Positions 3,545 through 18,523 of a DNA stretch of 64,000 bases are shown piece after piece. The DNA is from Halopseudomonas salina. Its GTDB lineage: Bacteria; Pseudomonadota; Gammaproteobacteria; Pseudomonadales; Pseudomonadaceae. The DNA is taken from NCBI RefSeq assembly GCF_008641105.1, contig NZ_VTTI01000002.1, positions 367,151 to 431,150 of the forward strand, in the 5' to 3' direction. The translations under genes were made by a program, and so were the position numbers. The notes beneath the pieces are model-generated. The model made no database searches and had not been told where the DNA came from. It saw nothing but the letters and a program-made list of their open reading frames with translations. The number at the start of each line of letters is the position of its first letter. Positions within the stretch are counted from its first letter, which is position 1.

Positions 3545-4387
3545 ATGGCGAACGGACCCTGGACCCAGGAAGAAGTCCGCTTAGCGGTCGCTGATTACAA
3601 GAGAATGCTTGTACAGGAGCTCAATGGGCAAAAATACAGTAAAACCCACCACCGGCGAGCCTTGCAGGTACTTTTGCAAGATCGGTCAGAAGGCTCCATT
3701 GAGCGTAAGCATCAAAATATCAGCGCCGTCTTGCATGAACTCGAGTGCCCGTGGATCGTCGGTTACAAACCGCTTGGTAATTACCAAGCGCTGCTCGTCG
3801 AAGCTGTCGTAGAGACGCTAGTAAACGACCCAATATTCGACCAGGCCGCACGCCATGCTAGCGAGCAACCTGCAATCGTCCCAATGGGAGTGGACTTTGA
3901 CTGCTGGATTGAGCAAACGCCGCAGCCAATAGAAATCAACGAATCCGCCTATCAACCGAGATTTTTGGCCACAAAGCGCGACTACGTGGCGCGAGAAGCC
4001 CGAAACCGCGCGCTTGGTCTTGCTGGGGAAGAATTAGTGCTTAGCTACGAGCAACAGCGTTTAGAACGCAGTGGCTTCGGATCGCTTGCTGGCAAGGTGG
4101 AACACACTTCAATTAAGCGAGGAGATGGTGTCGGCTATGACATCCTCTCGTTTGAAACCGACGGTAGGGAAAGGTTTATCGAAGTGAAGACCACTGCGTT
4201 TGCAAAAGCAACGCCCTTCTACATCAGCCGCAACGAGGTTGAGTTTTCCAAGGTGACGTCCGAGCGTTATCACCTCTATCGGCTTTTTGAATTCAGGACG
4301 AAACCAAGAATGTTCGCTCTGACAGGAGACATGCATCAGCGGCTCCGACTTGATCCGGTCACCTATCTTGCGTCGTTGGGTTCGTGA
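3545..4387 (+). CDS. DUF3883 domain protein, possible PD-(D/E)xK-fold nuclease
   Basis: This gene gives 280 residues from ATG 3545, with an AAGGAAT ribosome-binding site. The N-terminal 90 residues ('WTQEEVRLAVADYKRML', 'SIERKHQNISAVLHEL') form a small helical domain often seen in this family. The C-terminal DUF3883 domain (about residues 150-270) has 'GDGVGYDILSF' followed by 'RFIEVKTT', the D...E-x-K arrangement of restriction-endonuclease-like folds. DUF3883 proteins are frequently found in defence islands, in line with the methyltransferase-HNH gene upstream and the IS, viperin and restriction genes downstream. No substrate is known. It ends 68 bases before the insertion sequence and appears intact. 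Confidence 0.75.
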   Translation: MANGPWTQEEVRLAVADYKRMLVQELNGQKYSKTHHRRALQVLLQDRSEGSIERKHQNISAVLHELECPWIVGYKPLGNYQALLVEAVVETLVNDPIFDQAARHASEQPAIVPMGVDFDCWIEQTPQPIEINESAYQPRFLATKRDYVAREARNRALGLAGEELVLSYEQQRLERSGFGSLAGKVEHTSIKRGDGVGYDILSFETDGRERFIEVKTTAFAKATPFYISRNEVEFSKVTSERYHLYRLFEFRTKPRMFALTGDMHQRLRLDPVTYLASLGS

Positions 4388-4476: not shown

Positions 4477-6129
4477 TGTCTCAAACCCTTGCTATGATTT
4501 CTCGGGATTTCATCGCAAGGATCGTCCATGAAGCGCTTCATTCAAGGTGAGCATCGAGGCCAAAGCAACTTACTGCCCGAGAGCCTCGACGACTACGTCA
4601 ACGATACCAATCCGGTGCGAGTGGTCGATGTCTTTGTCGACGAACTCGACCTAGTGAAGCTGGGTTTTGAAAGCGCCATCCCCGCTGATACTGGTCGGCC
4701 TGCTTATCATCCCTCGATCCTGCTGAAGATCTACATCTACGGTTACCTCAACCGCATTCAATCCAGCCGACGCCTTGAACGAGAAGCGCAACGCAACGTC
4801 GAGTTGATGTGGCTGACCGGTCGCTTGATGCCTGATTTCAAGACTATCGCTAATTTTCGAAAGGACAACGGTAAGGCTATCCGTGGCGTCTGCCGTCAGT
4901 TCGTTGTGCTCTGTCAGCAGTTAGGGTTATTCGCCGGAAGCCTGATTGCCATCGATGGCAGCAAATTCAAGGCGGTCAACAACCGAGATCGCAATTTCAC
5001 CAGCGCCAAATTGAAGCGGCGGATGGAGGAAATCGAAGCAAGTATTAATCGGTACCTGACAGCGCTCGATGCTGCTGATCAACAGGATCGTCCAGCCTCT
5101 GACGCCAATGTCGTGCACCTGGAAGAAAGAATCGCCAAGCTGAAGGCGCAAATGAAAGAGCTTCAATTGATCGAAACTCAGCTCAATGAATCACCGGATA
5201 AGCAGGTATCACTGACGGATCCAGATGCCCGCTCCATGATGACTCGCGGCACAGGAATCGTTGGCTACAACGTGCAGACAGCGGTCGATACCAAGCACCA
5301 TTTAATCGTCGCTCATGAGGTGACCAACGTCGGGTCCGACCGCGATCAGCTCAGCCCTATTGCCAAGCAAGCCCGCGAGGCGATGGGAACAGAAAAGCTG
5401 TCGGTGGTAGCTGACCGTGGGTACTTCAAAAGCGGGGAAATCCTGGCTTGTCACGACGCAGGTATCGTCACCTATGTACCCAAGCCAATGACCTCCGCAG
5501 CCAAAGCCGATGGGCGACTCAACAACGACGCATTTATCTATGACGCGGCGGCAAACGCATACACTTGTCCGGCTGGCGAGACTTTGATTTGGCGTTTCTC
5601 CAGCGTTGAGAACGGCATGAAACTGCATCGGTACTGGAGCTCAAATTGCCAAAGCTGCGCATTGAAATCGCAGTGCACGCCGAGCAAGCAGCGGCGAATT
5701 CGGCGCTGGGAGCATGAAGCAGTGCTGGAAGAAATGCAGCACCGGCTCAGCAGAGCACCCGAGATGATGAAGGTTCGAAAACGAACCGTTGAACATCCCT
5801 TCGGGACGCTCAAACAATGGATGGGCGCGTCGCACTTCCTGACGCGAAAGCTCAATGGGGTGAGTGCTGAGATGAGCCTGAATGTGCTCGCTTACAACCT
5901 GAAACGGGTGATGAAAATCATAGGCACCGTCAGCTTGCTAGAGGCCCTGACAGCGTAAAAGCCCTGGCTTTACTCGCCTACGCTGCCTCTGAGAGGGCTC
6001 CAGGGCGTTGCTGGATTGTCTCATGCCCCCTTCGCAGTGGTCATAAGCTTGATCAGGTTCTCAGCTCGAGAAAGGCTCGCTATAGACCGTGACGGAAATC
6101 CGTTCTGGCGTTTTTACACACTCTGGGCC
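4455..6129. mobile_element. IS1182-family insertion sequence
   Basis: A single transposase gene is bounded by a perfect 22-bp terminal inverted repeat at 4455-4476 and 6108-6129 (key outer bases GGCCCAGAGTGTG). The similarity continues outward for about 11 bases with mismatches (4444-4454 and 6130-6140), so the true ends may be 4444 and 6140. I could not identify a target duplication with certainty. The transposase looks intact, so the element may be active. Confidence 0.85.
4528..5958 (+). CDS. IS1182-family DDE transposase
   Basis: This gene gives 476 residues from ATG 4528, 51 bases inside the left repeat. The N-terminus 'MKRFIQGEHRGQSNLLPESL' is typical of IS1182 transposases. The helical N-terminal domain has 'PAYHPSILLKIYIYGYLNRIQSSRRLE'. 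The catalytic DDE core shows 'IAIDGSKFKAVN' (first Asp), 'VVADRGYF' (second Asp) and 'RKRTVEHPFGTLKQWMG' (Glu), with a coiled-coil insertion between about residues 150 and 215. Full length and no stops indicate a functional enzyme that moves the element by cut-and-paste or a related DDE reaction. Confidence 0.9.
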   Translation: MKRFIQGEHRGQSNLLPESLDDYVNDTNPVRVVDVFVDELDLVKLGFESAIPADTGRPAYHPSILLKIYIYGYLNRIQSSRRLEREAQRNVELMWLTGRLMPDFKTIANFRKDNGKAIRGVCRQFVVLCQQLGLFAGSLIAIDGSKFKAVNNRDRNFTSAKLKRRMEEIEASINRYLTALDAADQQDRPASDANVVHLEERIAKLKAQMKELQLIETQLNESPDKQVSLTDPDARSMMTRGTGIVGYNVQTAVDTKHHLIVAHEVTNVGSDRDQLSPIAKQAREAMGTEKLSVVADRGYFKSGEILACHDAGIVTYVPKPMTSAAKADGRLNNDAFIYDAAANAYTCPAGETLIWRFSSVENGMKLHRYWSSNCQSCALKSQCTPSKQRRIRRWEHEAVLEEMQHRLSRAPEMMKVRKRTVEHPFGTLKQWMGASHFLTRKLNGVSAEMSLNVLAYNLKRVMKIIGTVSLLEALTA

Positions 6130-6140
6130 AATAGCGGTCA
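6108..6140. repeat. Right terminal inverted repeat of the IS
   Basis: This is the inverse copy of the left end: 22 perfect bases (6108-6129) plus a less conserved outer part. The outer part, 'CTGGGCCAATAGCGGTCATT', resembles 'CTGGCCGATAGCAGCCAGTCATT' found again near 10189-10211. Confidence 0.75.
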
Positions 6141-6495
6141 TTAGCTGTCTACATAAGCCGAGGCTATTCACATAGCGCTAATACGTAGCCGTCAGTCGAT
6201 GTTCAAAACAATGGACGGCATATCCTTTACGTGGCTTACCGGCTGCCAGTCAGGAGAAAAATAGCTAGGGCTGTAGCCAGCGATGCGAGCTGGCGGCCTC
6301 TGGATCAATGCTTGACTAAAGATACGAACCCATCTATTTTTATTTGGCGCGCTACTGCAGTCGGCTATAGAGCTTGATGCTCACGGGCTAATCACCCATC
6401 CGCTCCCCTCTGCTGCACGGGAGGTTTCAACTGCAGGCCAGAATCCAATCTGGTGCGTAACCCATGAAACCTAATCCTGATATTGGGAAAAAACC
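6141..6495. other. Non-coding stretch between IS and viperin locus
   Basis: No plausible gene is seen on either strand. The stretch must hold the promoter of the 720-residue gene; I see no confident -35/-10 pair. A short hairpin-prone segment (gctgtagccagcgatgcgagc, around 6273) is the only structure. The ribosome-binding site before ATG 6496 is weak. Confidence 0.4.
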
Positions 6496-8658
6496 ATGTG
6501 CAGAATTGATGCCGAATTCGGCAAGTACGACCTTGACGAAAAAGCCGACCCCTCCGAGCGTTTTACCCAAGCCCTTGACGAATATGAAGTCGTCGGGCAA
6601 CTCCGCTCATTGCTAACTAACCACTTCGCCACCACCTGGCAGCACGTATTCACATCCGCTAACAGACTGGAAGAGGCGTTAGACCTTGCTCGAAGCCAAG
6701 CGACGATGGAGGACCAAGCCGCTGCCGTAATCTCATCCGGCCCGCTGGCAGAGCGCCTGCGCATGCAGCTACTATTCGTCCTCATACATAAAGATGTCAC
6801 TGGACGCACCTTAGAAACGCTCGATTTTGCCAAAGACGTAGCCCAAACCGTCTTTCCGCACTCCCCTTACAAGCTGTTTAAAAAGCTCAAACCCGACTCA
6901 CAGCACGGTTGGTTCATAACCGCGCTGTACGGAAACGAGTACTTTCTCCACAGCGCAGTATTCGATGACCCAGCGCTTATTGCAGAAGGTGAGTGGGAAA
7001 GGGTGCGGGTGCTCTGGTCGTGCTTGCCCGCGTGGTCACACGACGAGCAGCAAATCCCGACTGAGTTGGCATCAATTTTCAGCCCTGATGCCAAAGCTCT
7101 GATTTCAGTTGCGTCAACACAGCGGCATGCTGGCCCGCCAACACCTGCAGCACACCAATGGCTTCAGCGGGTCAGGTTTCTAGAGGCTTGGGTTAAATCC
7201 GATGCTGCTGCCGGCAGACTCCGTAACCCGCACGAAGGCGTTTTTCAAAAGCTATATACCGAGAGGGAATCACTACGGTCTGACCTAGAGGCGCTACGTT
7301 CAGGCGACAGCGATGAAAAGGACCTGTACAACTCTGCCACAGATTGGCTCATAAACTTGGAACTGCAGCTAAAGGAAACCCTAGCGATCCACATGGAGCT
7401 CGCCGATGCAGATGAAGGACAGCTTGCTGACTGGGCTTTACAGCTTGATAACTGTGTCTCGGGGCGAATCATTGAGCTGCCAAGCGGTGAGTGGGATGTA
7501 GCCGAGCAGCAGCACCTTCGCAGGCTACTCTCCCTGCTCACTTCCGACAAAGCCGAGGCTTGGGTTCAGCAATCTGTCCACAGCGATGTAAAAGCAACAC
7601 TACAAAGCAGACTGGACTCGTTCCCAACACTATCTGATCAGAGAAGCAGAAAGTGGTGGGCATCGGACTATTCGGCCATATGGAAAGCCAAGTTAGAAGC
7701 CGAGATCCATGCCTTGGGCGTCAAAGATGCATTGGCCGTTCTATCCTGCAGGCTTTTCCGGCTTCCCAGTGAAGCAGTATCTCGAGAACTTCACCCTTGG
7801 TGGGATAGCCTGCTCGAAAAGTTGATTCACGACCCCGAGTTTCCACTGGCTCTAACCCCGCAATGGACTGTCCATGCTATTGGTAGATTGAGTGACGAGG
7901 TCGTGCTGCCTTACATCGACAAGAGCCTCGGACTGCTGCGCAGCCGACTGTCGAATGCGGCAGAGCCTGATCTGAACAACCAACTCGATGCACTGTTGAG
8001 CATGCTATCGCACCTAGACCCGCGGAAAGCACTTCGACATCGCCTGATGCTCATGCGCTCGTCGTACGTGCCGTTCGCCGACGAGTCACTATCACGCTTC
8101 AGCTCACATCACAGCGACAAGGCTGTCAGTTGGTACAGCCCACTGAGTGAGCAAGCTAGGAACTTTCACGCAAAAAAACTCAGCGGGACGCCTTATGTTG
8201 ACCGACAGGAATGCGAAAAAGCTGAGCTGGAGAGCTACCAGTCATTCGCCCTTGATCTGATCGAGTTTTGCCTTAGCCGCCTGCGCCTGCGCAAAGGCGA
8301 AAAGAAGCCCGAAGATGAACGGTACGCCGATAGCCAGGTGACCGAGCAATCGGCTATCTGGCGTCAAGGATATTTGAAGGCGCTGCTGGAAATCGGCCTT
8401 GACCCTAACGGTAAGGCGCACAAAACCGTTTTTTTTACCCGGCAGTTCGACCCTGATGAAAGCGTCCGCGATGTCGCGAAAGAGGCTTATCGAGCCGTGC
8501 GCCGGGAAACCAAAAGTAAAAAAAGCGTTCAGGACTACAAGCGTGGGCTGATCGCCGCTGAATGGTGGCTGCTAATGAGTCAGCGACGCGCACTCGGTCT
8601 TCCCATAGACCCAGAGGGAGCCCTCAAGACACGGCGCAATATGATGCGTAATCCGTAA
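6496..8658 (+). CDS. Unknown 720-residue protein upstream of a prokaryotic viperin
   Basis: I do not recognise the family. The product is a large, soluble, mostly alpha-helical protein rich in Leu, Ala, Glu and Arg, with no signal peptide or membrane segment. Features seen: an early acidic segment ('KYDLDEKADPSER'), 'HGWFITALYGNEYFLHS' near residue 136, a charged helical region near residues 245-330, and a C-terminal 'DPDESVRDVAKEAYRAVRRE' that looks like a HEAT-type helical repeat. No nucleotide-binding or nuclease motif is evident. An in-frame stop just upstream makes ATG 6496 the first start. The viperin gene follows on the same strand after 120 bases containing two hairpins, which suggests a common transcription unit. 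A regulatory, sensor or scaffold role with viperin is only an inference. Confidence 0.75.
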   Translation: MCRIDAEFGKYDLDEKADPSERFTQALDEYEVVGQLRSLLTNHFATTWQHVFTSANRLEEALDLARSQATMEDQAAAVISSGPLAERLRMQLLFVLIHKDVTGRTLETLDFAKDVAQTVFPHSPYKLFKKLKPDSQHGWFITALYGNEYFLHSAVFDDPALIAEGEWERVRVLWSCLPAWSHDEQQIPTELASIFSPDAKALISVASTQRHAGPPTPAAHQWLQRVRFLEAWVKSDAAAGRLRNPHEGVFQKLYTERESLRSDLEALRSGDSDEKDLYNSATDWLINLELQLKETLAIHMELADADEGQLADWALQLDNCVSGRIIELPSGEWDVAEQQHLRRLLSLLTSDKAEAWVQQSVHSDVKATLQSRLDSFPTLSDQRSRKWWASDYSAIWKAKLEAEIHALGVKDALAVLSCRLFRLPSEAVSRELHPWWDSLLEKLIHDPEFPLALTPQWTVHAIGRLSDEVVLPYIDKSLGLLRSRLSNAAEPDLNNQLDALLSMLSHLDPRKALRHRLMLMRSSYVPFADESLSRFSSHHSDKAVSWYSPLSEQARNFHAKKLSGTPYVDRQECEKAELESYQSFALDLIEFCLSRLRLRKGEKKPEDERYADSQVTEQSAIWRQGYLKALLEIGLDPNGKAHKTVFFTRQFDPDESVRDVAKEAYRAVRRETKSKKSVQDYKRGLIAAEWWLLMSQRRALGLPIDPEGALKTRRNMMRNP

Positions 8659-8689
8659 CCACCCGCAACAAGAAAAGTCACGGTGTACC

Positions 8690-8771
8690 GGAGCCTGATG
8701 CTCCTACTCTGACGCCTCGCGTCCGCCATGCAGAACCTTTTACCGACCGCACCACTGCGGTCGCCAAGGAG
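8690..8771 (+). promoter_or_regulatory. Two hairpins and strong ribosome-binding site before the viperin gene
   Basis: GGAGC/GCTCC (8690-8704) and CGACCGC/GCGGTCG (8744-8763) can form hairpins, and AAGGAG (8766-8771) follows directly, 7 bases before ATG 8779. The second hairpin abuts the ribosome-binding site, so it could modulate viperin translation or act as an attenuator between the two genes. Confidence 0.45.
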
Positions 8772-8778
8772 TTGACGT

Positions 8779-9738
8779 ATGTCCAAAGATAATTTGATTT
8801 TTCCCATCAGCCCTGTAAAAGCAGCTCCCGTCCACGTTGACGCTCTGACTATCAACTGGCACGTGACGGAGGCCTGCAATTACCGCTGCCAATACTGCTA
8901 CGCGAAATGGACGGACCACCCCTGTCCCCGCGAGCTATTTCACGATCGCGACCGCAGCCAGCACTTGCTGGTGGAGTTGTTCCAGTATTTTCAGCCGACA
9001 AACACCAGTAATCCTCTGCGTGATGCCCTCTCATGGCGCACTCTGCGCCTGAACCTGGCTGGCGGAGAGCCATCGATACTCGGAGAGCGCCTGCTAGACA
9101 TCACCCGCGTGGCCAAACAAGTAGGGTTTGAGGTTTCACTTATCAGCAATGCTTCAAGGTTGACATCTGACGTTATAAAGCAGCTTGCACCGCAACTGAC
9201 CTATCTAGGTGTCAGCCTAGACTCCACGGACTCTGGGACCAATCTTGCAATAGGACGGGTAGAAAGAAGCGGGCAAGGGCTGAGTCTAAATGAGCTGACC
9301 GCGAACCTGGACTTTGCTCGTCAAGTTAACCCCGCACTCAAGATCAAGATTACTACCGTCGTCAACGCCTTAAATGCCGATGAAGACTTGAGCGGACTAA
9401 TCACACGAGTTCGCCCAGAGCGCTGGAAGGTGCTGCGGATGCTACCAATAGTTGATGCCACTCTTGCCGTTAGCGACGAGGCCTTTGCAGCCTTTGTGGA
9501 AAGACATGGCGCTTTCCGATCAATCCAGTGCGTCGAGGACAACAGCGACATGTGTGAGTCGTACCTTATGGTCGACCCTTATGGCCGTTTCTTCCAAAAC
9601 CAAGCAGCTGGGAAAGGAGGCTACCTCTACAGCCAACCGATTTTACCTTCCGGTGCCGCCGCAGCATTTTCCGAAATGCGCTTCAACCCGGCCGGCTTTC
9701 GCTCCCGTTACACAACAGCACCGGGGGAGGCATCATGA
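8779..9738 (+). CDS. Prokaryotic viperin (radical SAM nucleotide dehydratase)
   Basis: The product is 319 residues. The radical SAM cluster motif is C33-x3-C37-x2-C40 in 'NWHVTEACNYRCQYCYAKW', followed by 'LNLAGGEPSIL' (SAM-binding GGEP, near 92-101). Segments line up along their length with animal viperin: 'VSLDSTDSGTNLAIGR', 'IKITTVVNALNADEDL', 'RWKVLRMLPI', 'AVSDEAFAAFVERH' and 'DMCESYLMVDPYGRFFQN'. Viperins convert CTP (bacterial ones also UTP or GTP) to 3'-deoxy-3',4'-didehydro nucleotides that stop phage RNA synthesis; which nucleotide this one uses cannot be read from the sequence. No nucleotide kinase is adjacent, unlike some viperin loci. Its stop overlaps the start of a HicA-like gene (ATGA), so the two are translationally coupled. 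Confidence 0.93.
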   Translation: MSKDNLIFPISPVKAAPVHVDALTINWHVTEACNYRCQYCYAKWTDHPCPRELFHDRDRSQHLLVELFQYFQPTNTSNPLRDALSWRTLRLNLAGGEPSILGERLLDITRVAKQVGFEVSLISNASRLTSDVIKQLAPQLTYLGVSLDSTDSGTNLAIGRVERSGQGLSLNELTANLDFARQVNPALKIKITTVVNALNADEDLSGLITRVRPERWKVLRMLPIVDATLAVSDEAFAAFVERHGAFRSIQCVEDNSDMCESYLMVDPYGRFFQNQAAGKGGYLYSQPILPSGAAAAFSEMRFNPAGFRSRYTTAPGEAS

Positions 9739-9962
9739 GGAAGTACTGCTCAGACAAAGACTTCGACCTCGTCATACGGTGCCTAGTGCGACACGGATGG
9801 GGTTATCAACGTGGCGGCAAACACGGCAAGTTGACTCACCCCTCTCTCAGGCGGCCCATTACGGTTTCTATTTCACCCAGTGGCCGCCGTAGTTTGCAGC
9901 GATTCAAGCAAACTGTTCTGTCTACCCACAACTGTACTGGAGTAACTAAAAGCCAGATGTAA
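9735..9962 (+). CDS. HicA-like small protein coupled to viperin
   Basis: This is a 75-residue basic protein whose ATG overlaps the viperin stop by four bases. 'HGWGYQRGGKHGKLTHPSLRRPITVSISPSGRRSLQRF' matches the double-stranded-RNA-binding fold of HicA/YcfA proteins, including the GG-K-H-G position where the HicA catalytic His sits. HicA toxins are mRNA interferases normally paired with a HicB antitoxin, but no HicB gene lies next to it. It could therefore be an RNA-binding partner or effector of the viperin locus rather than a classical toxin. Family assignment rests on this motif and size. Confidence 0.7.
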   Translation: MRKYCSDKDFDLVIRCLVRHGWGYQRGGKHGKLTHPSLRRPITVSISPSGRRSLQRFKQTVLSTHNCTGVTKSQM

Positions 9963-9969
9963 CATGTCA

Positions 9970-10006
9970 CCGGGCGGGCGCAGGCTTCTTACCAGCGTCC
10001 GCCCGG
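9970..10006 (+). terminator. GC-rich hairpin after the viperin locus
   Basis: CCGGGCGGGCGC (9970-9981) pairs with GCGTCCGCCCGG (9995-10006) with one mismatch, 8 bases after the HicA-like stop. No T run follows, so it is a terminator-like or transcript-stabilising hairpin that marks the end of the locus. Confidence 0.55.
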
Positions 10007-10475
10007 CAGCGTTCCAGAGTTTTGTCACGACTCAGCCATCAGCACCGGCCGAGCAGGGCAGCTTGTGGCTGCATACTTCCAAGATGTTGCCGATAGGCTC
10101 TTCTTGTAAACCATGCGGTAGAGGCTGAATCTCTCTAGATTCGTAGACACCCTTGAGGGCCGTTTCTGTGCAATTTTTATCTGTCGTCATCGGCTGCTTC
10201 TGGCCGATAGCAGCCAGTCATTCAAACCAAAACCACAACGAGCTCCGCCAACACTCTCACCTCATCTTTCTCCTCAGCCCCAACACAATCGGCTGAAACG
10301 AACTATCCGTCGACTCCGGTACCAGCGTGCAATCAATGGGGTCAGTGTCATTGTTTTCTTAAAGATCAAACGCTCTGACCCCATTGATTCGCGGAATTGC
10401 TATTGCACTACTCCCTGTACTCACATCCTGCCCCGACGGTTGAACCAATCAGGCCCACTTCATTCACCCATGCGT
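10007..10475. other. Non-coding stretch between viperin locus and hsdS
   Basis: I see no gene on either strand. It contains a segment near 10189-10211 resembling the outer end of the IS repeat and the long inverted repeat at 10331-10389. It separates two convergent units: the viperin locus ends from the left and hsdS ends from the right. Confidence 0.5.
10331..10389. repeat. 15-bp perfect inverted repeat around AATGGGGTCAG
   Basis: AATCAATGGGGTCAG (10331-10345) and CTGACCCCATTGATT (10375-10389) are perfect inverse copies with a 29-base spacer. The layout recalls REP-like elements mobilised by REP-associated tyrosine transposases, which often carry a GGGGTCAG core. No such transposase is in the window. 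Confidence 0.5.
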
Positions 10476-11810
10476 TCAAGCCGACGCCTTGCGACCCCGC
10501 TTGGTCTTGGGCGCCGCAGCCCGTTGCGCCTTGATACGTTCCAGCAACACACTGGCCGGCTCATCATTCGGGTCCTGCGGCACCAGCTCACCGCGAAAGG
10601 CCTTGGCTAGAATGCTTTGGGTCAGCCGATCAATCCGTGTTTGCGCGATTTTGACCCGGGTCTCCAGCTGGTCGGCGAAGGCGAATAGTTGTTCTACGCG
10701 GCTAACGATTTCGGTTTGTTCTGCTAATGTAGGAACTGGAACCTCGATGTCCTTCAAAACTGATGCCTTGATACCCTTAACTGTTGTTCCAGTTGCACGG
10801 CGCAATAACTCTTCTTGCAACAGTGGCGATTGCAAAGCTATAGCTCCAAAATTAGACAAAAAGCCTTCATGAAACTGGAGGCATATTGCACGCTGTGCCA
10901 ATGCAAACTTCTCAGTTATGTCGATTACCGCAATATTGCCTAGCGGTGCTTCAGTTGTTATCAGAACATCACCAACCAGCGGAATCCCTCGTGTCATCCA
11001 CCCCTCATAAGCTTCAGGACGTATGAACTCTCGAGGTTCTCTCGATATATACCCCGACCTGATGTTTTTTGCGGTAATGAGTGGAATTCCAGTCCCGACC
11101 TTTTCTGGGGTTTTCCCTCGATAGTCGATGAAACGTGCAAGCAAACCTAGCCTATTAACCGGGTAGGCGAAGTCCAGATCCTTATATTTGCTAGAGTCAT
11201 CCTTGCGCCACTCCTCCGTCAACCGCCCGGAAACAGCAGCGGCGAGGACGGATTGGCGGAAGCGTTTGAGCAGTGCGGGGATGCCGTCGACGCGGGCTTT
11301 CAGGGTATCGACCTGGGCCAGCAGTTCGTCGAGTTTTGCGGCGATGCGGGTTTGTTCGGCGAGTGGCGGCAATGAGGTTGGTGCTGTAGAAAAAATGCCC
11401 TTGTTCACGATGGAAATCGTTGTTGCAGAGGATTTGGCTTCGAGCCATGGCTTAAGTGTTTTGCAGTAATGAAACAGGAACTTTGGATCTATTCGTTCAT
11501 GCGGAATTATTGCATTAATCTGCTGATTGGTAGCTGAGGTTGTCGTGGTTAAGCCGACTTTCCCTAGATTTCCAATGCAGGTCACTACGATGCTTTGTGA
11601 CGGTAGGCTTGGAATCTCGGCGGCGCCGTCAGCAGTTAGATAGGTTTCAGTCCTGAAGATCGGGCTGGCAAAATCGAGGTCGCCTGGCTTGATGAAGGGT
11701 ATATCCCCGCCATAAAAGCGTGACTCTTTAGTACTCGGCGTTTTTCCCGTAACGATCTGGCCAATATCTGACAATTGGCAGGCAGCCCATCCCGTCGGCA
11801 ACCCACTCAT
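10476..11810 (-). CDS. hsdS: Type I restriction-modification specificity subunit HsdS
   Basis: This 444-residue protein has the two-target-domain layout of type I S subunits. Target recognition domain 1 begins 'LPTGWAACQLSDIGQIVTGKTPSTKE' and runs to about residue 150. A conserved helical spacer ('LAEQTRIAAKLDELLAQVDTLKARV') follows. Domain 2 starts near 'VNRLGLLARFIDYRGKTP', and a second spacer ('LAEQTEIVSRVEQLFAFADQLETRV') closes the protein before a basic tail. Each domain reads half of a bipartite DNA target for the HsdM/HsdR complex. Its start overlaps the hsdM stop by four bases (ATGA), so hsdM and hsdS are coupled. The target sequence cannot be predicted. Confidence 0.93.
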   Translation of the reverse strand: MSGLPTGWAACQLSDIGQIVTGKTPSTKESRFYGGDIPFIKPGDLDFASPIFRTETYLTADGAAEIPSLPSQSIVVTCIGNLGKVGLTTTTSATNQQINAIIPHERIDPKFLFHYCKTLKPWLEAKSSATTISIVNKGIFSTAPTSLPPLAEQTRIAAKLDELLAQVDTLKARVDGIPALLKRFRQSVLAAAVSGRLTEEWRKDDSSKYKDLDFAYPVNRLGLLARFIDYRGKTPEKVGTGIPLITAKNIRSGYISREPREFIRPEAYEGWMTRGIPLVGDVLITTEAPLGNIAVIDITEKFALAQRAICLQFHEGFLSNFGAIALQSPLLQEELLRRATGTTVKGIKASVLKDIEVPVPTLAEQTEIVSRVEQLFAFADQLETRVKIAQTRIDRLTQSILAKAFRGELVPQDPNDEPASVLLERIKAQRAAAPKTKRGRKASA

Positions 11811-13417
11811 CCCCGCTCCCCCGCTTGTAGCCTATCGCTTGAAGCTTGCAGCTCCGCCTCCGGCGCCTCCAGCCCCATCACCTCCGCCATCAACCGCTTC
11901 TGCGCCACCACCTCGTCCTCGGCCCCCAAGGCCTTCATCAACTCCTCCAACTCATGCAAGGCCTCAGTCAACTCCGCCATGGCCTCACCGGCCAGCACTT
12001 CTGGCGCGGGCAGGTCGGCGGCATTTTCACTGGAGGCATCCTTGAGCCAGCTGATATCCAGCGAGTCGCCGCGCTCGGTAATCTGCTCGCGGGTAAAGCA
12101 GCGGAAACGGCTGAGTTCACCAATACCCTCGACATTCTCGGCCCGCGGGCTGTTGCCGTTCGGGTCATCGCCATAGGCGTCTTCAAAGGGTTTAAGGTGC
12201 GCATCACCAAAGGGCGTACGCTTGCCGAAGCTGGGCATATTGCTGCGCAGGTCATAGATCCATACGCGTTGGGTGCAGCCCTGTTCCTGACGCGGATCAC
12301 CCGGGCTGCCCTTCTGGAAGAACAGTACGTTGGTCTTGACGCCCTGGGCGTAGAAGATGCCGGTGGGCAGGCGCAGGATGGTGTGCAGGTTGCACTTGTT
12401 CATCAGGTCGCGGCGTACCTCGGTGCCCACGCCGGCCTCGAACAGGACGTTATCCGGCAATACCACGGCGGCGCGGCCACCGGGTTTGAGGTTGCGGTAG
12501 ATGTGCTGCATAAAGGCCAGCTGCTTGTTGCTGGTTTTATAGGTCAGGTCATCCCGGGTGTTGCTGGCCTCCCCGCCTTTGCTGGTACCAAAGGGCGGAT
12601 TGGCGAGGATAATATCGGCCTTGGGCAGGGCCTTGCCGGCATCGCCGAGGGCGTTGCCCAGGTGCACTACACCTTCGTCGTCGCCTTCCATGCCATGCAG
12701 CAAGCAGTTCATCAGGGACAGGCGGCGCGTGTTGGGGACCAGTTCTATGCCTACAAAGGCCTTATGCTTCTGGAAGGCCGCATCCTTGGCGCTCAGCGCC
12801 AGGTAATCGTCGGTCTGCTCGCGCATATATTGGTCAGCAGCAACCAGAAAGCCCGCGGTCCCCGCGGCCGGGTCCTGTATTACCTCACCAATCTGCGGTT
12901 TGAGGCAGCGCACCATGCTGTTGATCAGGGCGCGCGGGGTAAAGTACTGCCCTGCCCCGGATTTGGTTTCGTTGGCGTTCTTTTCCAGCAGGCCTTCGTA
13001 CAGATCACCCAGGCCGTCTTTGGCGGCGGTGAACCAGTCGATCTGGTCCAGGGTCTTGATCATCTGTTCCAGGTGGCGCGGTTCGCGCAGGCGAGTTTGC
13101 GCGTCGGCGTAGATGGCGCTGATCAGTGGGTCTTCGTGTACCAGATTATTGTCCGCATCTTTGCCGGTGGACAGGCTTAGCAGGATCCGCTTGTAGTCGT
13201 TCAGCAGGTTGATACCAGACTTGCCGTTGATATCGGTCCAGCGACAGCCTTCGGGCAGCGGGTGCTTTTTCAGGGTGCCGGCTTCGGTGTTCTCGTGCAC
13301 CATTTTGATAAACAGCAGCAGCACCAGCTCGGTGACGTAGTCGCTGTAGTTGATGCCGTCGTCGCGCAGCACGTCGCAGAGGTTCCAGAGCTTCTGGACG
13401 ATGTCGTTGTTGTTCAT
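11807..13417 (-). CDS. hsdM: Type I restriction-modification methyltransferase HsdM
   Basis: This 536-residue N6-adenine methyltransferase has an N-terminal HsdM helical domain ('LWNLCDVLRDDGINYSDYVTELVLLLFIKM'), the family signature 'GAGQYFTPRALINSMV', SAM-binding motif I 'DPAAGTAGFLVA', and catalytic motif IV 'ILANPPFGTS'. The C-terminus is helical and acidic. With HsdS it methylates the host target; with HsdR it forms the restriction complex. It starts only 7 bases after the fic stop and is coupled to hsdS, so fic-hsdM-hsdS is one operon. Length and motifs are normal. Confidence 0.95.
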   Translation of the reverse strand: MNNNDIVQKLWNLCDVLRDDGINYSDYVTELVLLLFIKMVHENTEAGTLKKHPLPEGCRWTDINGKSGINLLNDYKRILLSLSTGKDADNNLVHEDPLISAIYADAQTRLREPRHLEQMIKTLDQIDWFTAAKDGLGDLYEGLLEKNANETKSGAGQYFTPRALINSMVRCLKPQIGEVIQDPAAGTAGFLVAADQYMREQTDDYLALSAKDAAFQKHKAFVGIELVPNTRRLSLMNCLLHGMEGDDEGVVHLGNALGDAGKALPKADIILANPPFGTSKGGEASNTRDDLTYKTSNKQLAFMQHIYRNLKPGGRAAVVLPDNVLFEAGVGTEVRRDLMNKCNLHTILRLPTGIFYAQGVKTNVLFFQKGSPGDPRQEQGCTQRVWIYDLRSNMPSFGKRTPFGDAHLKPFEDAYGDDPNGNSPRAENVEGIGELSRFRCFTREQITERGDSLDISWLKDASSENAADLPAPEVLAGEAMAELTEALHELEELMKALGAEDEVVAQKRLMAEVMGLEAPEAELQASSDRLQAGERG

Positions 13418-13424
13418 GGTTTTC

Positions 13425-14522
13425 TCAATTGGTTGGAAACTGGGGGGCTTCGCTAAGCAAGCGGACCAAGGGCTGATTGATGTAGTAGTTGCTGCGGCCT
13501 ACCTTTTCTTTGACCAGAAGGCCGTGCTCCACCAGTTGATCAAGGTATTTGGTTGCAGTAATGCGGGAGACTTGCAGGTCTTCCATGACAAATTCGATTT
13601 TGGTGTACGGGTGGTTGAACAAGTTATTGAGCAGCTCCTGCCGGTAAATTTTGGGCAGCTCGGCGCGCATCCTTTGCTTATATTCCGTCATCAGGACTTT
13701 CATTGCCTGTATCAGCTCGATGGTGTGCTGCGATGTTTCGATCAGCGCGTCGAGCATGTATAGCAGCCAGGGCTCCCATTCTCCGCTTTCACGCACCTGC
13801 TGCAATTGCTGATAATAAGCGGCCTTGTTACGAATAAAGTGACGACTCAGGTATAGCACCGGCAGGTTGAGAAGGTCTTTGGCGACCAGATATAGCAGAT
13901 TGAGGATGCGCCCGGTGCGGCCGTTGCCATCGTAGAACGGATGAATGCTTTCGAACTGGTGGTGAATGATGGCCATTTTTACCAATGGATCTGCATCACA
14001 TAGACTGTCATCGTTGATGTAGGTGACTAGATTCGCCATCAATTTTTCTATGATTTCTGCGTGCTGCGGCGGAGTGTAGATAACTGCGCCGGTCGCGGCA
14101 TTTTTCAGCTCGGTACCTGGCAGCCGACGCAAGCCTGCCTTGTTGCGTTCGAGCAGCTGCTGAACGTCAATAATATCGTTTAGTCGAAGTAACCCGGTCT
14201 GCCTGACGCCAAGAAATCCCTGCCTAAGTGCGTAGGCATAGTCTTGCACTTCCTTGGCGGCAATGGGGGTAACAGCCTCAACGTTCAGGTTAGCTTTATA
14301 CAGCTCATCGTGCGTGGTAACGATGTTCTCGATCTCGGAGCTGTCTTTTGCCTCCTGCAGGGCCAGTGTGTTGATCAATATGGCTTCGTTTGGAATGGTG
14401 GCGGCAACGCCCTTGAGTTCAGCCAGATAGCGATGAGCCTCGGCGGTTTTTTTCAACACCGCACGGGTCTCAAGGCTACTCAGATTGCTGATCGGGAGTT
14501 CTGGAATGCTGTATCCGCTCAT
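13425..14522 (-). CDS. Fic-domain AMP-transferase with C-terminal winged helix, inside the RM operon
   Basis: This 365-residue protein has the Fic active-site motif H194-PFYDGNGRTG-R205 complete ('IHPFYDGNGRTGR'), so AMP or another nucleotide moiety could be transferred to a target hydroxyl. Residues S61 to N66 (SSEIEN) match the (S/T)xxxE(G/N) inhibitory helix motif of class II Fic proteins, meaning self-inhibition within the chain. A C-terminal winged-helix segment ('FVMEDLQVSRITATKYLDQLVEHGLLVKEK') could bind DNA. The gene sits between hsdR and hsdM, 7 bases from hsdM, and its promoter region has several copies of an inverted-repeat half-site, so self-regulation of the operon is plausible. 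Confidence 0.93.
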   Translation of the reverse strand: MSGYSIPELPISNLSSLETRAVLKKTAEAHRYLAELKGVAATIPNEAILINTLALQEAKDSSEIENIVTTHDELYKANLNVEAVTPIAAKEVQDYAYALRQGFLGVRQTGLLRLNDIIDVQQLLERNKAGLRRLPGTELKNAATGAVIYTPPQHAEIIEKLMANLVTYINDDSLCDADPLVKMAIIHHQFESIHPFYDGNGRTGRILNLLYLVAKDLLNLPVLYLSRHFIRNKAAYYQQLQQVRESGEWEPWLLYMLDALIETSQHTIELIQAMKVLMTEYKQRMRAELPKIYRQELLNNLFNHPYTKIEFVMEDLQVSRITATKYLDQLVEHGLLVKEKVGRSNYYINQPLVRLLSEAPQFPTN

Positions 14523-14572
14523 GTAACAGGCCTTGATCCATGGACTGGTTTTTCAGATATAGATTTTGTTGG

Positions 14573-14649
14573 ATTTTATACATGTCGCGGAGAACATGCA
14601 TAGAAATCGTTATTTTCTATACATATCAATAGGCTCATGTATAGAAAAT
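14573..14649 (-). promoter_or_regulatory. Operator-like cluster of ATGTATAGAAAAT half-sites upstream of fic
   Basis: ATTTTCTATACAT (14612-14624) and ATGTATAGAAAAT (14637-14649) form a perfect 13-bp inverted repeat. Two degenerate copies lie at 14573-14584 and 14596-14607. All lie between hsdR and the fic start at 14522, where the fic-hsdM-hsdS promoter must be. Confidence 0.6.
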
Positions 14650-14679
14650 GACGCCACCCTTTGCCGATTGCCCGGCTTT

Positions 14680-17600
14680 TCAGCCCACTTCTGGCCATAT
14701 GGCTTTGTTTAGCTCCACCAGCAGGCTGTCCAACTGACTATTCAGAATCTTGTCCAGCTGTTTGGCACCCCCGTGCTCCGAGAATCGGCTGTTCACAAAG
14801 TCGCGATCAATGATCACTTCGTGCACCAGCTGTTTGGCCAGGCGTTCCAGCCATTTGCGCTGCGCGGGCAGCCATTTATGGCTCTGGTAAATACGCTGCA
14901 TGGCCTGGGCTACCCGCTGCTCAAAGGGCACCAGGGCCTCGCCCAGGGCGGCGCGACGAATATGGCCGACGATGCTGGCGGCGATATCCTGGTTGGTCTG
15001 GTTGCGGACGGCGGTTTGCAGCTTGGCCTCGCTGTACCCGGCGCCATCGAGTAGTAGTTTGATCTCTTTGAGCTGCTCCCGTGTCAGGTCGCGCGGCTTG
15101 TTGACCACCACTGCCAGGGCTGCATTCTGGTTGAGTTGTTCGCGGATAAACCGATTGAAGCTGTCCAGATAGTCCTCCGGCTTCTGATGCACGCCATAGC
15201 TTTGCGTGCGCTCGCGGATCTCGTCGGGGTGTTCGGAAATAACCGGCTGGCGGTCGCTGCCAAGTAGGTTGTTGACCTCGTTCAACTGATGCAGCAAGCC
15301 ATTGTGCTGGGTGATGAACTGGGCGGCCTGCTTGGGACCTAGCTTGCGCAAATGAGTGTGAAGCGTTTTCGGCTCTACGCCCCATAGATCCTGCAGTTCA
15401 TCAAGCTTGTGTTTGACCGCCGGTTTGGTTTCGGCCTTTTTCTCGGCTTTGCGCAGCACGCGCATGACTTTCTGGCTTAGCTGGCTGAGCACCACGTCGG
15501 CATGGCTTTCACCAGCGCTGTCCCCTGGTGCGCTGAGGGCGCGTTCCAGTTGCTCGGGGTTGGTGATCTCCTCCAGCAGCTGTTCCAGGCTGATATTCGG
15601 ATCCTTGACCAGCGGCTTCATGGTATTGACGTCGCTAAGGGCGGCGTAGATATCCACTGGGTCGTAGATGCGGAATACGGTTTTGCCGATCTCGTCACAG
15701 CGGCGGGTGGCACGGCCAATCATCTGTTCATACAGAATGCGCGACTTGACCCGGCGCATGAATACCAGATGGCAGATCTTCGGTACGTCGATGCCGGTGG
15801 TCAGCAGGTCTACGGTGATGGCGATATTCGGGTAACGCTCGTTCTTGTACTGGCGGATCAGCTGCTCGACCTTGTCGCTCTGGCCGGTGATCTTGGCTAC
15901 TGCGGCCTGGTTGTATTCGCCGTTATAAAGCTCCTTGAAGGCCTCATCCAGCAGTCGTTTGACCATATCGGCGTGCAGGTCGGTGGCGCAGAAAATCAGG
16001 GTCTTCTCATCAGCGAACGGATCCAACTCCTGTACCAGCTGCTGACAGATCACTCGATTGAAGTTCTCGTTGATGACGCGACGGTTGAAGGCATCGACCT
16101 CGAAATTCAACTCGTCATCCAGTTCGGCGCTTTGCACTTCGCCGGTCTGGGTATTGATAGCGCTGACCTTTTCGCCCTTGGCGAAGGTAATACCGTTTTG
16201 CGTCAGCAGGGTTTCATAGCGAATGGGCGGCTCGTGATCGATCAGCCAGTCCTCGGCGACGGCTTCACGGTAGGTGTAGATGTAAACCGGCTTGCCGAAA
16301 ATCTCGCTGGTGTGTTTGGCCGGCGTGGCGGTCAGGCCGATTTTCACCGCGTCAAAGTAGTCCAGTACGCGGCGGTAACTGGAGAGGTATTGGCTGGCAT
16401 CACGGGTGGCCAGTTCGCCCTCGGTCATTTCCTGATCCAGGGTGTAACCGCGGTGGGCTTCGTCGATGATAATGCAATCAAACTGGTCCACCGGCGGCGG
16501 GTTGTCGTTCATGAATATGCGCTTGACCATGGCCTGCACGGTGGCGACCTGGATGCGGGTTGCGGCCTCGGCGGCCATGTCACCCAGCTCCGCGACGTTG
16601 TAGATCTGCGACAGCGTCTGATTCTGTTCTAGCGATGCTTCGTTGAAGGCGTCGATAGCCTGTTGGCCCAGAGCAGTACGATCTACCAGAAACAGGATGC
16701 GTTTGAAACGCTCGGTTTTCAGAAAGCGGTACATCAGCCCGATGATGGTGTGGGTTTTACCAGTACCGGTGGCCATGGCCAGCAGCGCCACACGAATTTC
16801 TTTAGCCAGTGTGTTTTCTACCGCCACAATGGCCTTTTGTTGATAGGCGCGCAGTTTCAGGTAACCGAAAGGCTCGGCCTGCAATTGGGCTTGCGCGGCC
16901 TCTTTACTACGCGTTAGCAAATCGCGCAGGCCCTCTGGGCTGTGGAAGCTGGGCAGCGCTCTTCTGGTATTGGCCGGGTGCCGCACGTCCCGAAACCAGG
17001 TACCTGACTGTTCTGCCAGCTGCTTAACAAAGGGGCGCCCGTTGCAGGAGTATACGAAAGGCACTTTGTAATGGCCGTCTTCGTCATCGGGCCAAGCAAC
17101 GGTCTGCCCTGCCTGCTCCCAGGCGCCAATAAGCGGCGCGGTGACGCTCAAGCCCTTGCTGTAACGCTCGGCCTGGCCAATCTTTCCGGCAACATTGGTG
17201 TTTTCCTTTTTGGCTTCCACCACGGCGATCGGTGTCAGGCCAGCAAACAGCAAATAATCGGCGCGGCCGTTCTCGCCTTTGTACTGGGTTGGCCATTCGG
17301 CTATGGCGAGGTTCTTGCCCTTCTCCGGGCGGGCTCCGCTCTTGTAGGTGAGGGCTTCACTATCAGCTTGCCATCCCGCTTCAATCAGCTGCTGATCAAT
17401 CAAAATGCGGGTGAGGGCTTCATCCAGAACAATATGCTGGGTGGCGGCTTGCGTGTTGCGGCTGAGTGTCTGGCGTTGAGCGGTTTGTGTCTTGTCATCC
17501 TGTGACGTCAGTTCAGCTTGAAGGGCTTTGATACGGGCTTCATAAGCCTGCTGTTGCTGATTGAGCGCCTGCTCATGGGTGGCAGCTTGCTGGGCCAGGG

Positions 17601-18198
17601 CTCGCGACTCTTCATCCATAGCATGGGCCAGGGCTTCGTATTCGTCCTTCTCTTTGGCGATCAGCTCATTGAGCTGCTGGCTCGAATCAAGGCCCATATT
17701 GGCTTGCTGCAGCTCGTATTTCAGCTTGCTAATTTCAGTCTGCAGGTTGCGCAACTGTTCGCTGGGATCAGCAGGCGGGATAAAGGGGCCGGGCTTGAAG
17801 TGCACACCGGTTTTGCCAAAGGTTTGATGAAACCAGATGGCCAGTTTGCGGGCGACTACCAGACCGCTGATGGCTTCCTTGTGCAGCGTCTTGAATTGGT
17901 GCGTGGCTTTGTTGCCCTCGATACGCAGGGTATGAAACAGCTCGCGCACCACCGGTTCCAGCTTGAGCTCACGGTTGATCTTGAACAGCAGATCGGCCTG
18001 GCTGGTTTGATCGTCGAACTCGATACCGGCCCGGGCAGCAAGGTGCTGGGCCAATGCCTCACCCAGCTGACGCAATTTGATCAGAGTGGTGTTGGGGTCG
18101 CCAGCAAAGGCCCGCTCGGCGGACTGGGCAATTTCGACAAAAAGCGGATCGTGTTCTGCCAGAAAACCAAAATTGCTGGTGGGTTCAGGCGATGTCAT
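14680..18198 (-). CDS. hsdR: Type I restriction endonuclease subunit HsdR
   Basis: I place the start at the ATG ending at 18198, behind a GGGAG site, which gives 1172 residues; the frame is open further upstream without a good ribosome-binding site. Order of domains: an N-terminal DUF4145-like region (residues about 15-110), a coiled coil (about 140-240), the nuclease core with 'PIAVVEAKKENTNV' (the E-x-K motif), then a superfamily 2 helicase motor with Walker A 'MATGTGKTHT', 'IIDEAHRGY' (DEAH) and 'GLTATPAKHT', and an EcoEI-type C-terminal domain. It translocates DNA and cuts unmodified DNA with HsdM and HsdS. It is separated from fic by 157 bases that hold the operator cluster, so it may have its own promoter. 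Confidence 0.94.
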   Translation of the reverse strand: MTSPEPTSNFGFLAEHDPLFVEIAQSAERAFAGDPNTTLIKLRQLGEALAQHLAARAGIEFDDQTSQADLLFKINRELKLEPVVRELFHTLRIEGNKATHQFKTLHKEAISGLVVARKLAIWFHQTFGKTGVHFKPGPFIPPADPSEQLRNLQTEISKLKYELQQANMGLDSSQQLNELIAKEKDEYEALAHAMDEESRALAQQAATHEQALNQQQQAYEARIKALQAELTSQDDKTQTAQRQTLSRNTQAATQHIVLDEALTRILIDQQLIEAGWQADSEALTYKSGARPEKGKNLAIAEWPTQYKGENGRADYLLFAGLTPIAVVEAKKENTNVAGKIGQAERYSKGLSVTAPLIGAWEQAGQTVAWPDDEDGHYKVPFVYSCNGRPFVKQLAEQSGTWFRDVRHPANTRRALPSFHSPEGLRDLLTRSKEAAQAQLQAEPFGYLKLRAYQQKAIVAVENTLAKEIRVALLAMATGTGKTHTIIGLMYRFLKTERFKRILFLVDRTALGQQAIDAFNEASLEQNQTLSQIYNVAELGDMAAEAATRIQVATVQAMVKRIFMNDNPPPVDQFDCIIIDEAHRGYTLDQEMTEGELATRDASQYLSSYRRVLDYFDAVKIGLTATPAKHTSEIFGKPVYIYTYREAVAEDWLIDHEPPIRYETLLTQNGITFAKGEKVSAINTQTGEVQSAELDDELNFEVDAFNRRVINENFNRVICQQLVQELDPFADEKTLIFCATDLHADMVKRLLDEAFKELYNGEYNQAAVAKITGQSDKVEQLIRQYKNERYPNIAITVDLLTTGIDVPKICHLVFMRRVKSRILYEQMIGRATRRCDEIGKTVFRIYDPVDIYAALSDVNTMKPLVKDPNISLEQLLEEITNPEQLERALSAPGDSAGESHADVVLSQLSQKVMRVLRKAEKKAETKPAVKHKLDELQDLWGVEPKTLHTHLRKLGPKQAAQFITQHNGLLHQLNEVNNLLGSDRQPVISEHPDEIRERTQSYGVHQKPEDYLDSFNRFIREQLNQNAALAVVVNKPRDLTREQLKEIKLLLDGAGYSEAKLQTAVRNQTNQDIAASIVGHIRRAALGEALVPFEQRVAQAMQRIYQSHKWLPAQRKWLERLAKQLVHEVIIDRDFVNSRFSEHGGAKQLDKILNSQLDSLLVELNKAIWPEVG

Positions 18199-18523
18199 CA
18201 GTAAGAAACTCCCTTTCAACCTGAAAGCTCGGCCGTTCCAGTTCGGACACGTTCTCTCCAAAATCCTTGTCAGCACGAATACGTTACCGAACAACACTCA
18301 GGTAGCCGGTTTGTTATGTGATCCACTTTGCATTATCTGAGGTCCGTTGTCTCTAGGGACAAACATAAGCGGCTTGATCCGGGCGCGGATCGAGCGCGAT
18401 CTAGTGACTAACAGACCTCGCCGTAAAAGCATTTCGATTTAGGCACTCATCCTAGCTGCCTGTTTCCGAATTATGGCTATTGGTCCATACTTCATATCAT
18501 TACGCATCAACACGGAGCCAAGG
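18199..18523. promoter_or_regulatory. Divergent intergenic region, hsdR and antitoxin promoters
   Basis: It holds the promoters of hsdR (minus strand) and the DUF433 gene (plus strand). A palindrome TTGTC-N6-GACAA lies at 18347-18362 and a short GATCCG/CGGATC hairpin near 18377-18392. No gene is visible. Which regulator uses the palindrome is unknown; the MerR-like antitoxin is a candidate. Confidence 0.4.

Follow-up and report, generated by a model that had tools for sequence, protein, structure and literature searches.

The 64,000-nucleotide (nt) stretch of Halopseudomonas salina DNA analysed here (contig NZ_VTTI01000002.1, positions 367,151 to 431,150; hereafter the window) carries a prokaryotic viperin (pVip) operon, in which the viperin gene is preceded by a gene for a 720-amino-acid (aa) protein and followed by a small HicA-like gene, and two structured RNA elements, designated leader A (about nt 6351–6472) and element B (about nt 8681–8781), lie before the first and the second gene, respectively. 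On our reading, the locus is an antiviral pVip operon headed by a controller module that can be exchanged, the 720-aa protein, a predicted helical solenoid, regulating the operon via both RNA elements; this reading is given slightly less than an even chance (about 0.48). The conserved leaders were absent from the sampled viperin operons that lack the 720-aa protein, which suggests a portable control module. The features are as follows, models R1 and R2 being those of element B and leader A described below.

6312–6340, + strand: predicted sigma-70 promoter, TTGACT-17-TATTTT, 14 nt from the leader A core
6351–6472, + strand: leader A, structured RNA at the 5' end of the predicted transcript (alignment, model R2, covariation)
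6496–8658, + strand: 720-aa protein, predicted all-helical HEAT/ARM-like solenoid of no known family (library searches, predicted model)
8681–8781, + strand: element B, structured RNA between the 720-aa gene and viperin (alignment, model R1, pair counts, third stem)
8779–9738, + strand: prokaryotic viperin, 319 aa, radical S-adenosylmethionine (SAM) type with CxxxCxxC and GGEP (NF038283, PADLOC, Pfam)
9735–9962, + strand: HicA-like small protein, 75 aa, conserved KH motif (PADLOC HicA-like, Pfam below gathering score, alignment of relatives)

The preliminary description of this DNA had placed three genes here on one strand, the viperin and HicA-like genes overlapping by ATGA; all three open reading frames (ORFs) and the overlap were verified, and the two RNA elements were absent from that account.

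Association of the 720-aa protein with viperin

Two peptide patterns conserved at the C-terminus were used to scan the genome_contigs set (84,980 species), a search that relatives without the patterns would escape; it gave 47 stretches, of which 17 encoded relatives of the 720-aa protein (L001–L017). Their hosts were Stutzerimonas, Atopomonas, Marinobacter, Marinobacterium, Amphritea, Vibrio, Shewanella, Pseudoalteromonas, Leucothrix, Rheinheimera and a Pseudomonadales metagenome bin; homologues reached down to 33% identity with the window protein, and in L007 the gene was split across two contigs. At least 47 clusters of full-length or partial relatives were found by protein search, in which 7,998 candidates were scored each time. 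An eighteenth locus (L020) was added, and the counts over 18 distinct loci exclude the window.

Intact viperin lay directly downstream of the 720-aa gene in 14 of the 18 loci (L001–L007, L010–L013, L015, L017 and L020), and the last gene encoded a HicA-like protein in 12 and a cysteine-rich protein, showing repeated Y-C..C..WHL motifs in alignment, in 6. The preliminary description had asked whether homologues of the 720-aa protein recur next to viperin in other genomes, and had named homologues mostly without viperin as the contrary outcome; with 14 of 18 loci that outcome did not occur, and the 720-aa protein is supported, by gene neighbourhood, as a true companion of viperin. Of 124 Marinobacter genomes, 6 had the 720-aa protein and 14 had viperin over the cut-off, the 6 being all among the 14 (chance 6.7e-7 on the assumption that the genomes are independent, which they are not), and among 227 Vibrio genomes the numbers were 3 and 16, with 3/3 shared. 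The family of the L008 host (116 genomes) had the 720-aa protein in 2, neither with intact viperin. Sampling of the class (369 genomes) gave 5 with viperin over the cut-off, including one host of the 720-aa protein; for the order of the L001 host the figure was 4 of 341, including two such hosts.

Two neighbouring arrangements were also seen. In Marinobacter changyiensis, the host of L004, a further viperin ORF, which is partial and has a HicA-like ORF behind it (L098, 5586–6151), lies upstream of the complete operon, at a distance of about 9 kb from its 720-aa gene. In L008, nt 10828–13654, on the downstream side of the decayed viperin, encode two proteins that may form another nucleotide-acting system: one of 306 aa that on reading is radical-SAM-like and distinct from viperin, and one of 637 aa in which AAA kinase-like and HAD domains were found.

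Leader A and its promoter

Leader A comprised the helices P1 (6355–6361/6430–6436), P3 (6403–6407/6419–6423) and P4 (6437–6442/6449–6454), a hairpin at 6370–6382 and a possible pseudoknot between GTTTCA (6424–6429) and TGAAAC (6465–6470). Model R2, built from 9 loci with the window excluded, found the leader of the window at an E value of 3.6e-14 and those of 8 loci outside the model at 1.9e-15 to 1.1e-9, and also detected the split copy of L007 and the copy of L010 cut by a contig end. In an alignment fitted to the model, which favours pairing, 5 of 19 pairs were changed on both sides and 99.0% of the cells paired, and neither value was reached in any of 500 shuffles; further pair types were no more numerous than in the shuffles. 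The P4 hairpin was legible in 17/17 loci with varying sequence. The pseudoknot (GUUUCA/UGAAAC) was possible in 15/17, with one mismatch in L006 and differences on both strands in L016, and is nearly invariant, so that little covariation stands behind it.

A promoter of the form TTGACN, a 17–18 nt spacer and TAnnnT, located 8–14 nt before the core, was observed in 16 of the 17 leader A loci, L015 being the exception. It had three or fewer mismatches to the consensus in 12/17, versus 2.5% of random 84-nt windows from the same loci; four or fewer mismatches occur in 20% of such windows. With a promoter so placed, leader A is probably the start of the transcript. The idea that leader A is a mobile-element end was set aside because the distances from it to the promoter and to the start codon hardly vary.

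Element B

Element B comprised three hairpins (8690–8704, 8711–8723 and 8744–8751/8756–8763) and spanned the viperin Shine-Dalgarno sequence (8766–8771) up to the ATG. Model R1 was built from all 19 element B sequences, including that of the window, so that its positives, such as the 100.2 bits scored in the window, follow by construction and its negatives are informative. Within two of the hairpins, 3 pairs were changed on both sides, each in a single sequence, as matched by 0–1 of 500 shuffles. The third stem varied in sequence with pairing largely kept (mean score, 16.0 versus 10.2 in 200 shuffles, standard deviation 0.51) and was weaker in L001 and L014. Two alternative closing helices, GGUG/CGCC and GUGUAC/GUAUAC, could be drawn, with compensatory support for neither.

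When four distant loci were compared with the window at the DNA level, leader A was 0.67–0.85 identical and element B 0.71–0.77, the corresponding ranges being 0.60–0.65 for the 720-aa gene and 0.59–0.69 for viperin where present; both RNA elements are more conserved than the coding DNA.

Further details of the two elements were noted. An ATG with an immediate stop codon occurs in 15 of the 19 element B sequences (ATGTAA in 14, ATGTAG in 1) and may be a start-stop element; at this site, nt 8728–8733 in the window, ATGCAG is read in the window, L001 and L002, and AAG in L016. A near-identical hairpin, GAGCYTGATGCTC, stands in both leaders (6370–6382 and 8691–8703) in the window and several other hosts, with a differing loop in leader A of Vibrio, and is perhaps one binding site used twice.

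Distribution of the RNA elements

All 17 host genomes had a single strong copy of element B (17/17). Leader A likewise occurred once in each; 16 copies were clear, and the remaining one was truncated at a contig end (E value, 0.018). Element B was found in exactly those 6 of 124 Marinobacter genomes that carry the 720-aa protein; as these 6 were part of model R1, the test lies in the 118 negatives. Leader A was found in 3 of 227 Vibrio genomes, those with the 720-aa protein, together with one weak match in a fourth (27.4 bits, E value 0.0065). In 29 viperin loci without the 720-aa protein (L069–L097, two of which hold only partial viperins), element B was absent, the sole row being one of 12.6 bits in L080 (E value, 3.9), and leader A gave no row at an E value of 10 or below. 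Where viperin is lacking, in L016 and L014, the gene directly behind element B is the HicA-like one (L016) or that for the cysteine-rich protein (L014).

Rfam 15 gave four rows for nt 6000–10500 of the window at an E value of 10 or below, none of which came near the gathering score; among them was a long non-coding RNA model on the minus strand (17.6 bits versus a gathering score of 40; E value, 3.8) that overlaps leader A. At gathering, Rfam found a single transfer RNA in 7 loci. The exact element B pattern had no match in viral contigs.

Apparent exchange of modules between viperin lineages

The slot beside viperin in the 29 loci without the 720-aa protein was occupied by a divergent ankyrin-type gene in 14 and by a gene for a 233-aa-type protein in 10; the remaining 5 consisted of two with a short divergent ORF, helix-turn-helix-like by reading, two with none of these types, and the fragment L097. 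In many of them the downstream slot held HicA-like, cysteine-rich, RelE/ParE-like or thymidylate-kinase-like genes (RelE is a working label, Pfam having given ParE_like for one; the HicA-like match of L088 was weak, 33 bits). Homology of the 720-aa protein to the ankyrin protein was rejected, the hhalign probability being 0.7% and single-sequence comparison equally weak. As a separate observation, one operon type (L069, L070, L072–L075 and L080–L083) consists of the 233-aa-type protein (no Pfam family), viperin and a ParE/RelE-like gene; 5/10 also carry a nucleotide kinase, and in several a membrane-type and a secreted-type protein come first (by reading).

In a tree of 42 viperin sequences, the viperins linked to the 720-aa protein fell in two separate groups, a division forced by well-supported branches, and they formed a single group in 0% of 200 bootstrap trees; the group linked to the cysteine-rich protein sat with ankyrin-linked viperins of Vibrio. 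The tree of the 720-aa protein placed the members linked to the cysteine-rich protein in one clade (99/98), and the HicA-linked L008, L009, L015 and L016 in the same larger set (98/99), L009, L015 and L016 being long-branched. Because the linked viperins form two groups while the cysteine-rich-linked 720-aa proteins form one clade, the module of leader A, 720-aa gene and element B seems to have moved between viperin lineages, and the simplest reading would be a single transfer, into a slot held by the ankyrin gene in the sister group.

The 720-aa protein

As the preliminary description stated, the 720-aa protein belongs to no recognised family: it had no match in Pfam, NCBIfam or PADLOC at an E value of 1 or below, and a single chance-level match in PHROGs (E value, 0.13). 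The predicted model was all-helical, with a predicted local distance difference test score (pLDDT) of 84, and its fold search in the PDB returned mostly HEAT/ARM proteins, yet not above the level common to helical repeats; against viral models there was no fold match at an E value of 0.001 or below. The protein is thus a candidate HEAT/ARM-type helical solenoid, matching no better than generic helical repeats, and its predicted all-helical form is like that of importins, the PP2A A subunit and CAND1, which appeared in the search. Within the family, conservation is highest at the N-terminus (MCRID) and in the last 140 or so residues, the middle being more variable. The conserved patterns matched 12 stretches in viral contigs, with no relatives among them, and tblastn against plasmids and phages gave no match.

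The viperin and HicA-like genes

By curated models, the 319-aa protein is a prokaryotic viperin, in line with the preliminary description. It scored 329.1 bits against NCBIfam NF038283 (viperin; cut-off, 180), had an E value of 2.2e-95 against PADLOC pVip, exceeded the Pfam cut-off for Radical_SAM (PF04055), and had C33, C37 and C40 (CxxxCxxC) and GGEP legible in its sequence. Enzymes of the pVip type make 3'-deoxy-3',4'-didehydro nucleotides and protect from phage; since the products are toxic nucleotides, tight control is expected. We know of no switch that turns a bacterial viperin on.

The 75-aa protein matched PADLOC HicA-like (PDLC02910) at an E value of 3.1e-24 and Pfam HicA_toxin at 21.9 bits, under the gathering score of 27. 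Its predicted model (pLDDT 73) had the alpha-beta-beta-beta-alpha order of the HicA fold; the top four Foldseek rows were all HicA/HicAB entries, but with E values of only 0.3–0.85, and a profile search of the PDB with the HicA-like alignment gave no HicA, only five chance rows (E values, 0.42–0.83). A KH pair was invariant across 19 aligned HicA-like sequences; its histidine may correspond to the catalytic one of HicA, although the sole alignment to a solved HicA puts the histidine elsewhere. No HicB-like gene was recognised on reading the neighbouring ORFs, on which no HicB profile was run. HicA-like genes occurred without the 720-aa protein in 8 Marinobacter viperin loci, so that the HicA-like gene is no fixed partner of that protein.

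hicA genes upstream and downstream of pVip constitute classes 9 and 10 of Gerdes 2024 (PMC10865869), which are defined by this adjacency, and that paper credits an earlier note of it. PADLOC 2.0 contains pVip models PDLC02903–02905 and, with close numbers, Ankyrin (PDLC02908), HicA-like (PDLC02910) and VakA (PDLC02911). The pair of viperin and HicA is therefore not new, being in PMC10865869 and in PADLOC, and with these published pVip-hicA pairs and PADLOC models the earlier statement that viperin defence is a single enzyme, at times with a kinase, was too narrow. Of the proposal of an undescribed system, what stands is the 720-aa companion, no description of which was found in the literature searched. 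Class 10 of Gerdes resembles the present locus in having viperin followed by a small HicA-fold gene and differs in that the passages of PMC10865869 seen contain no upstream solenoid gene or RNA leaders. The PADLOC accessory models share the same HicA-like family and an ankyrin protein in the slot beside viperin (14 other loci), whereas the 720-aa protein matches none of them at an E value of 1 or below and shows no detectable relation to the ankyrin protein. AbiF/AbiD with the structured non-coding RNA RCd22 likewise joins a defence gene to a conserved structured RNA, but, as far as the parts of PMC12373285 seen go, with one protein and one neutralising RNA, in contrast to two predicted mRNA leaders, a solenoid gene and a viperin operon here. 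Neither the solenoid as a viperin companion nor RNA leaders of viperin were found in the titles and abstracts searched and the passages of one paper, a sample outside which lie the main pVip papers, so that absence from print is not established.

Genomic setting

The setting was in part the defence island of the preliminary description: its insertion sequence (IS1182 transposase, 4528–5958) and its restriction-modification genes (a type I set) were confirmed, and a PDC-S36 protein is also there. The type I set is complete at 10476–18297, with specificity, methylase and restriction subunits and a SoFic-type Fic gene between the methylase and restriction genes. The protein of 3545–4387, with an NOV_C domain, is the PADLOC candidate PDC-S36 (E value, 7.6e-110) and adjoins the transposase. 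At 10325–10394 there is a long near-perfect inverted repeat around AATGGGGTCAG...CTGACCCCATT, for which Rfam gave chance-level microRNA rows only; it is perhaps a small mobile-element or repeat relic.

Proposed mechanism and alternative explanations

In the mechanism proposed, one promoter would give a single transcript of leader A, the solenoid gene, element B, viperin and the small HicA-like gene. The solenoid protein would be a sensor and regulator that recognises and binds leader A and element B, and through these RNAs would hold down translation of its own gene and of the effector genes until infection alters its state; viperin would then make chain-terminating nucleotides, and the small HicA-like (elsewhere cysteine-rich) protein would act on RNA. 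We infer an RNA-binding controller because the solenoid gene appears to be transferred together with the RNA elements, because these are absent without the protein, because their sites lie at both translation starts, and because element B is retained before whichever effector gene follows. A portable protein-RNA immune sensor, in which the solenoid sits on the leaders of its own and the effector mRNA, phage releases it, and translation of viperin and the small RNA-acting protein is turned on, is a tentative proposal and an unlikely one.

Several observations weigh against control by the solenoid through both RNAs. Intact viperin was missing or decayed in 4 of the 18 loci: L008 has a short viperin remnant and then the HicA-like gene, L009 and L016 the HicA-like gene only, and L014 only the gene for the cysteine-rich protein. 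Moreover, 4 of 16 host genomes searched (the genome of L013 was left out) had no viperin above the cut-off anywhere, these being the same hosts without viperin beside the 720-aa protein. In element B, the closing helix GUGUAC/GUAUAC lacks compensatory changes, and two of its pairs are broken in the window and its two closest relatives. The charge of the solenoid is only mildly basic in the last 70 residues (+6) and is negative over residues 1–500. Finally, the viperin Shine-Dalgarno sequence had a mean unpaired probability of 0.27, versus 0.34 with shuffled upstream sequence, with values of 0.03–0.82 for single loci. Simple occlusion of this site by element B is unsupported, the site being not clearly more hidden than in shuffled sequence; control, if real, thus needs the solenoid protein, a ligand or tertiary structure.

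A ligand would be the key if the RNA elements were riboswitches, for instance for a nucleotide altered in infection or made by viperin, with the solenoid gene merely controlled and its product not binding RNA. The many invariant unpaired positions, the multi-stem junctions and the possible pseudoknot look aptamer-like, and element B extends onto the ribosome-binding site. A metabolite riboswitch would, however, be expected on other operons too, and the elements were found neither in the 29 viperin loci without the solenoid nor elsewhere in the 17 host genomes, nor did they match Rfam; we consider this explanation improbable. HEAT/ARM-like solenoids are often protein-binding scaffolds, and the solenoid could instead serve viperin and the small protein as a physical partner or scaffold, in substrate delivery, in complex assembly or as a direct antiphage effector, the RNAs only tuning expression. 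The HEAT/ARM-like rows of the fold search, the constant gene order and the strong conservation of the N-terminus and the last 140 or so residues speak for such a role, which is nonetheless assigned a low probability, given that the solenoid ORF is still open where viperin is absent (L009, L014 and L016), that it accompanies two distant viperin lineages, and that a protein not detectably related to it, the ankyrin protein, takes its place at other viperins.

A role of the RNA elements as antitoxins or guides of the small HicA-like or cysteine-rich protein, comparable with type III toxin-antitoxin or AbiF-like systems, is the least probable of these explanations and very doubtful. The same elements accompany two different kinds of small protein, and HicA-like proteins stand without them in the 8 Marinobacter viperin loci, even though the predicted helices and strands of the small protein follow the HicA order, reading of the ORFs beside it revealed no HicB-like gene, and there is a precedent in AbiF, where, according to the parts of PMC12373285 seen, a structured RNA neutralises the defence toxin in cis and in trans.

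Significance

On the reading of the solenoid as a controller acting through both RNAs, the locus is a defined candidate for the control of pVip, comprising one protein and, always in its company, two RNA elements that stand at translation starts; in other viperin operons, other proteins replace the solenoid/RNA module. Two structured RNAs are added, which were found in neither Rfam nor the literature searched, the main pVip papers lying outside that search. The locus makes the triggering of prokaryotic viperin directly testable, and the immune-sensor reading, if true, would mean that viperin immunity includes an RNA-gated control module that can be swapped for unrelated controllers such as the ankyrin protein.

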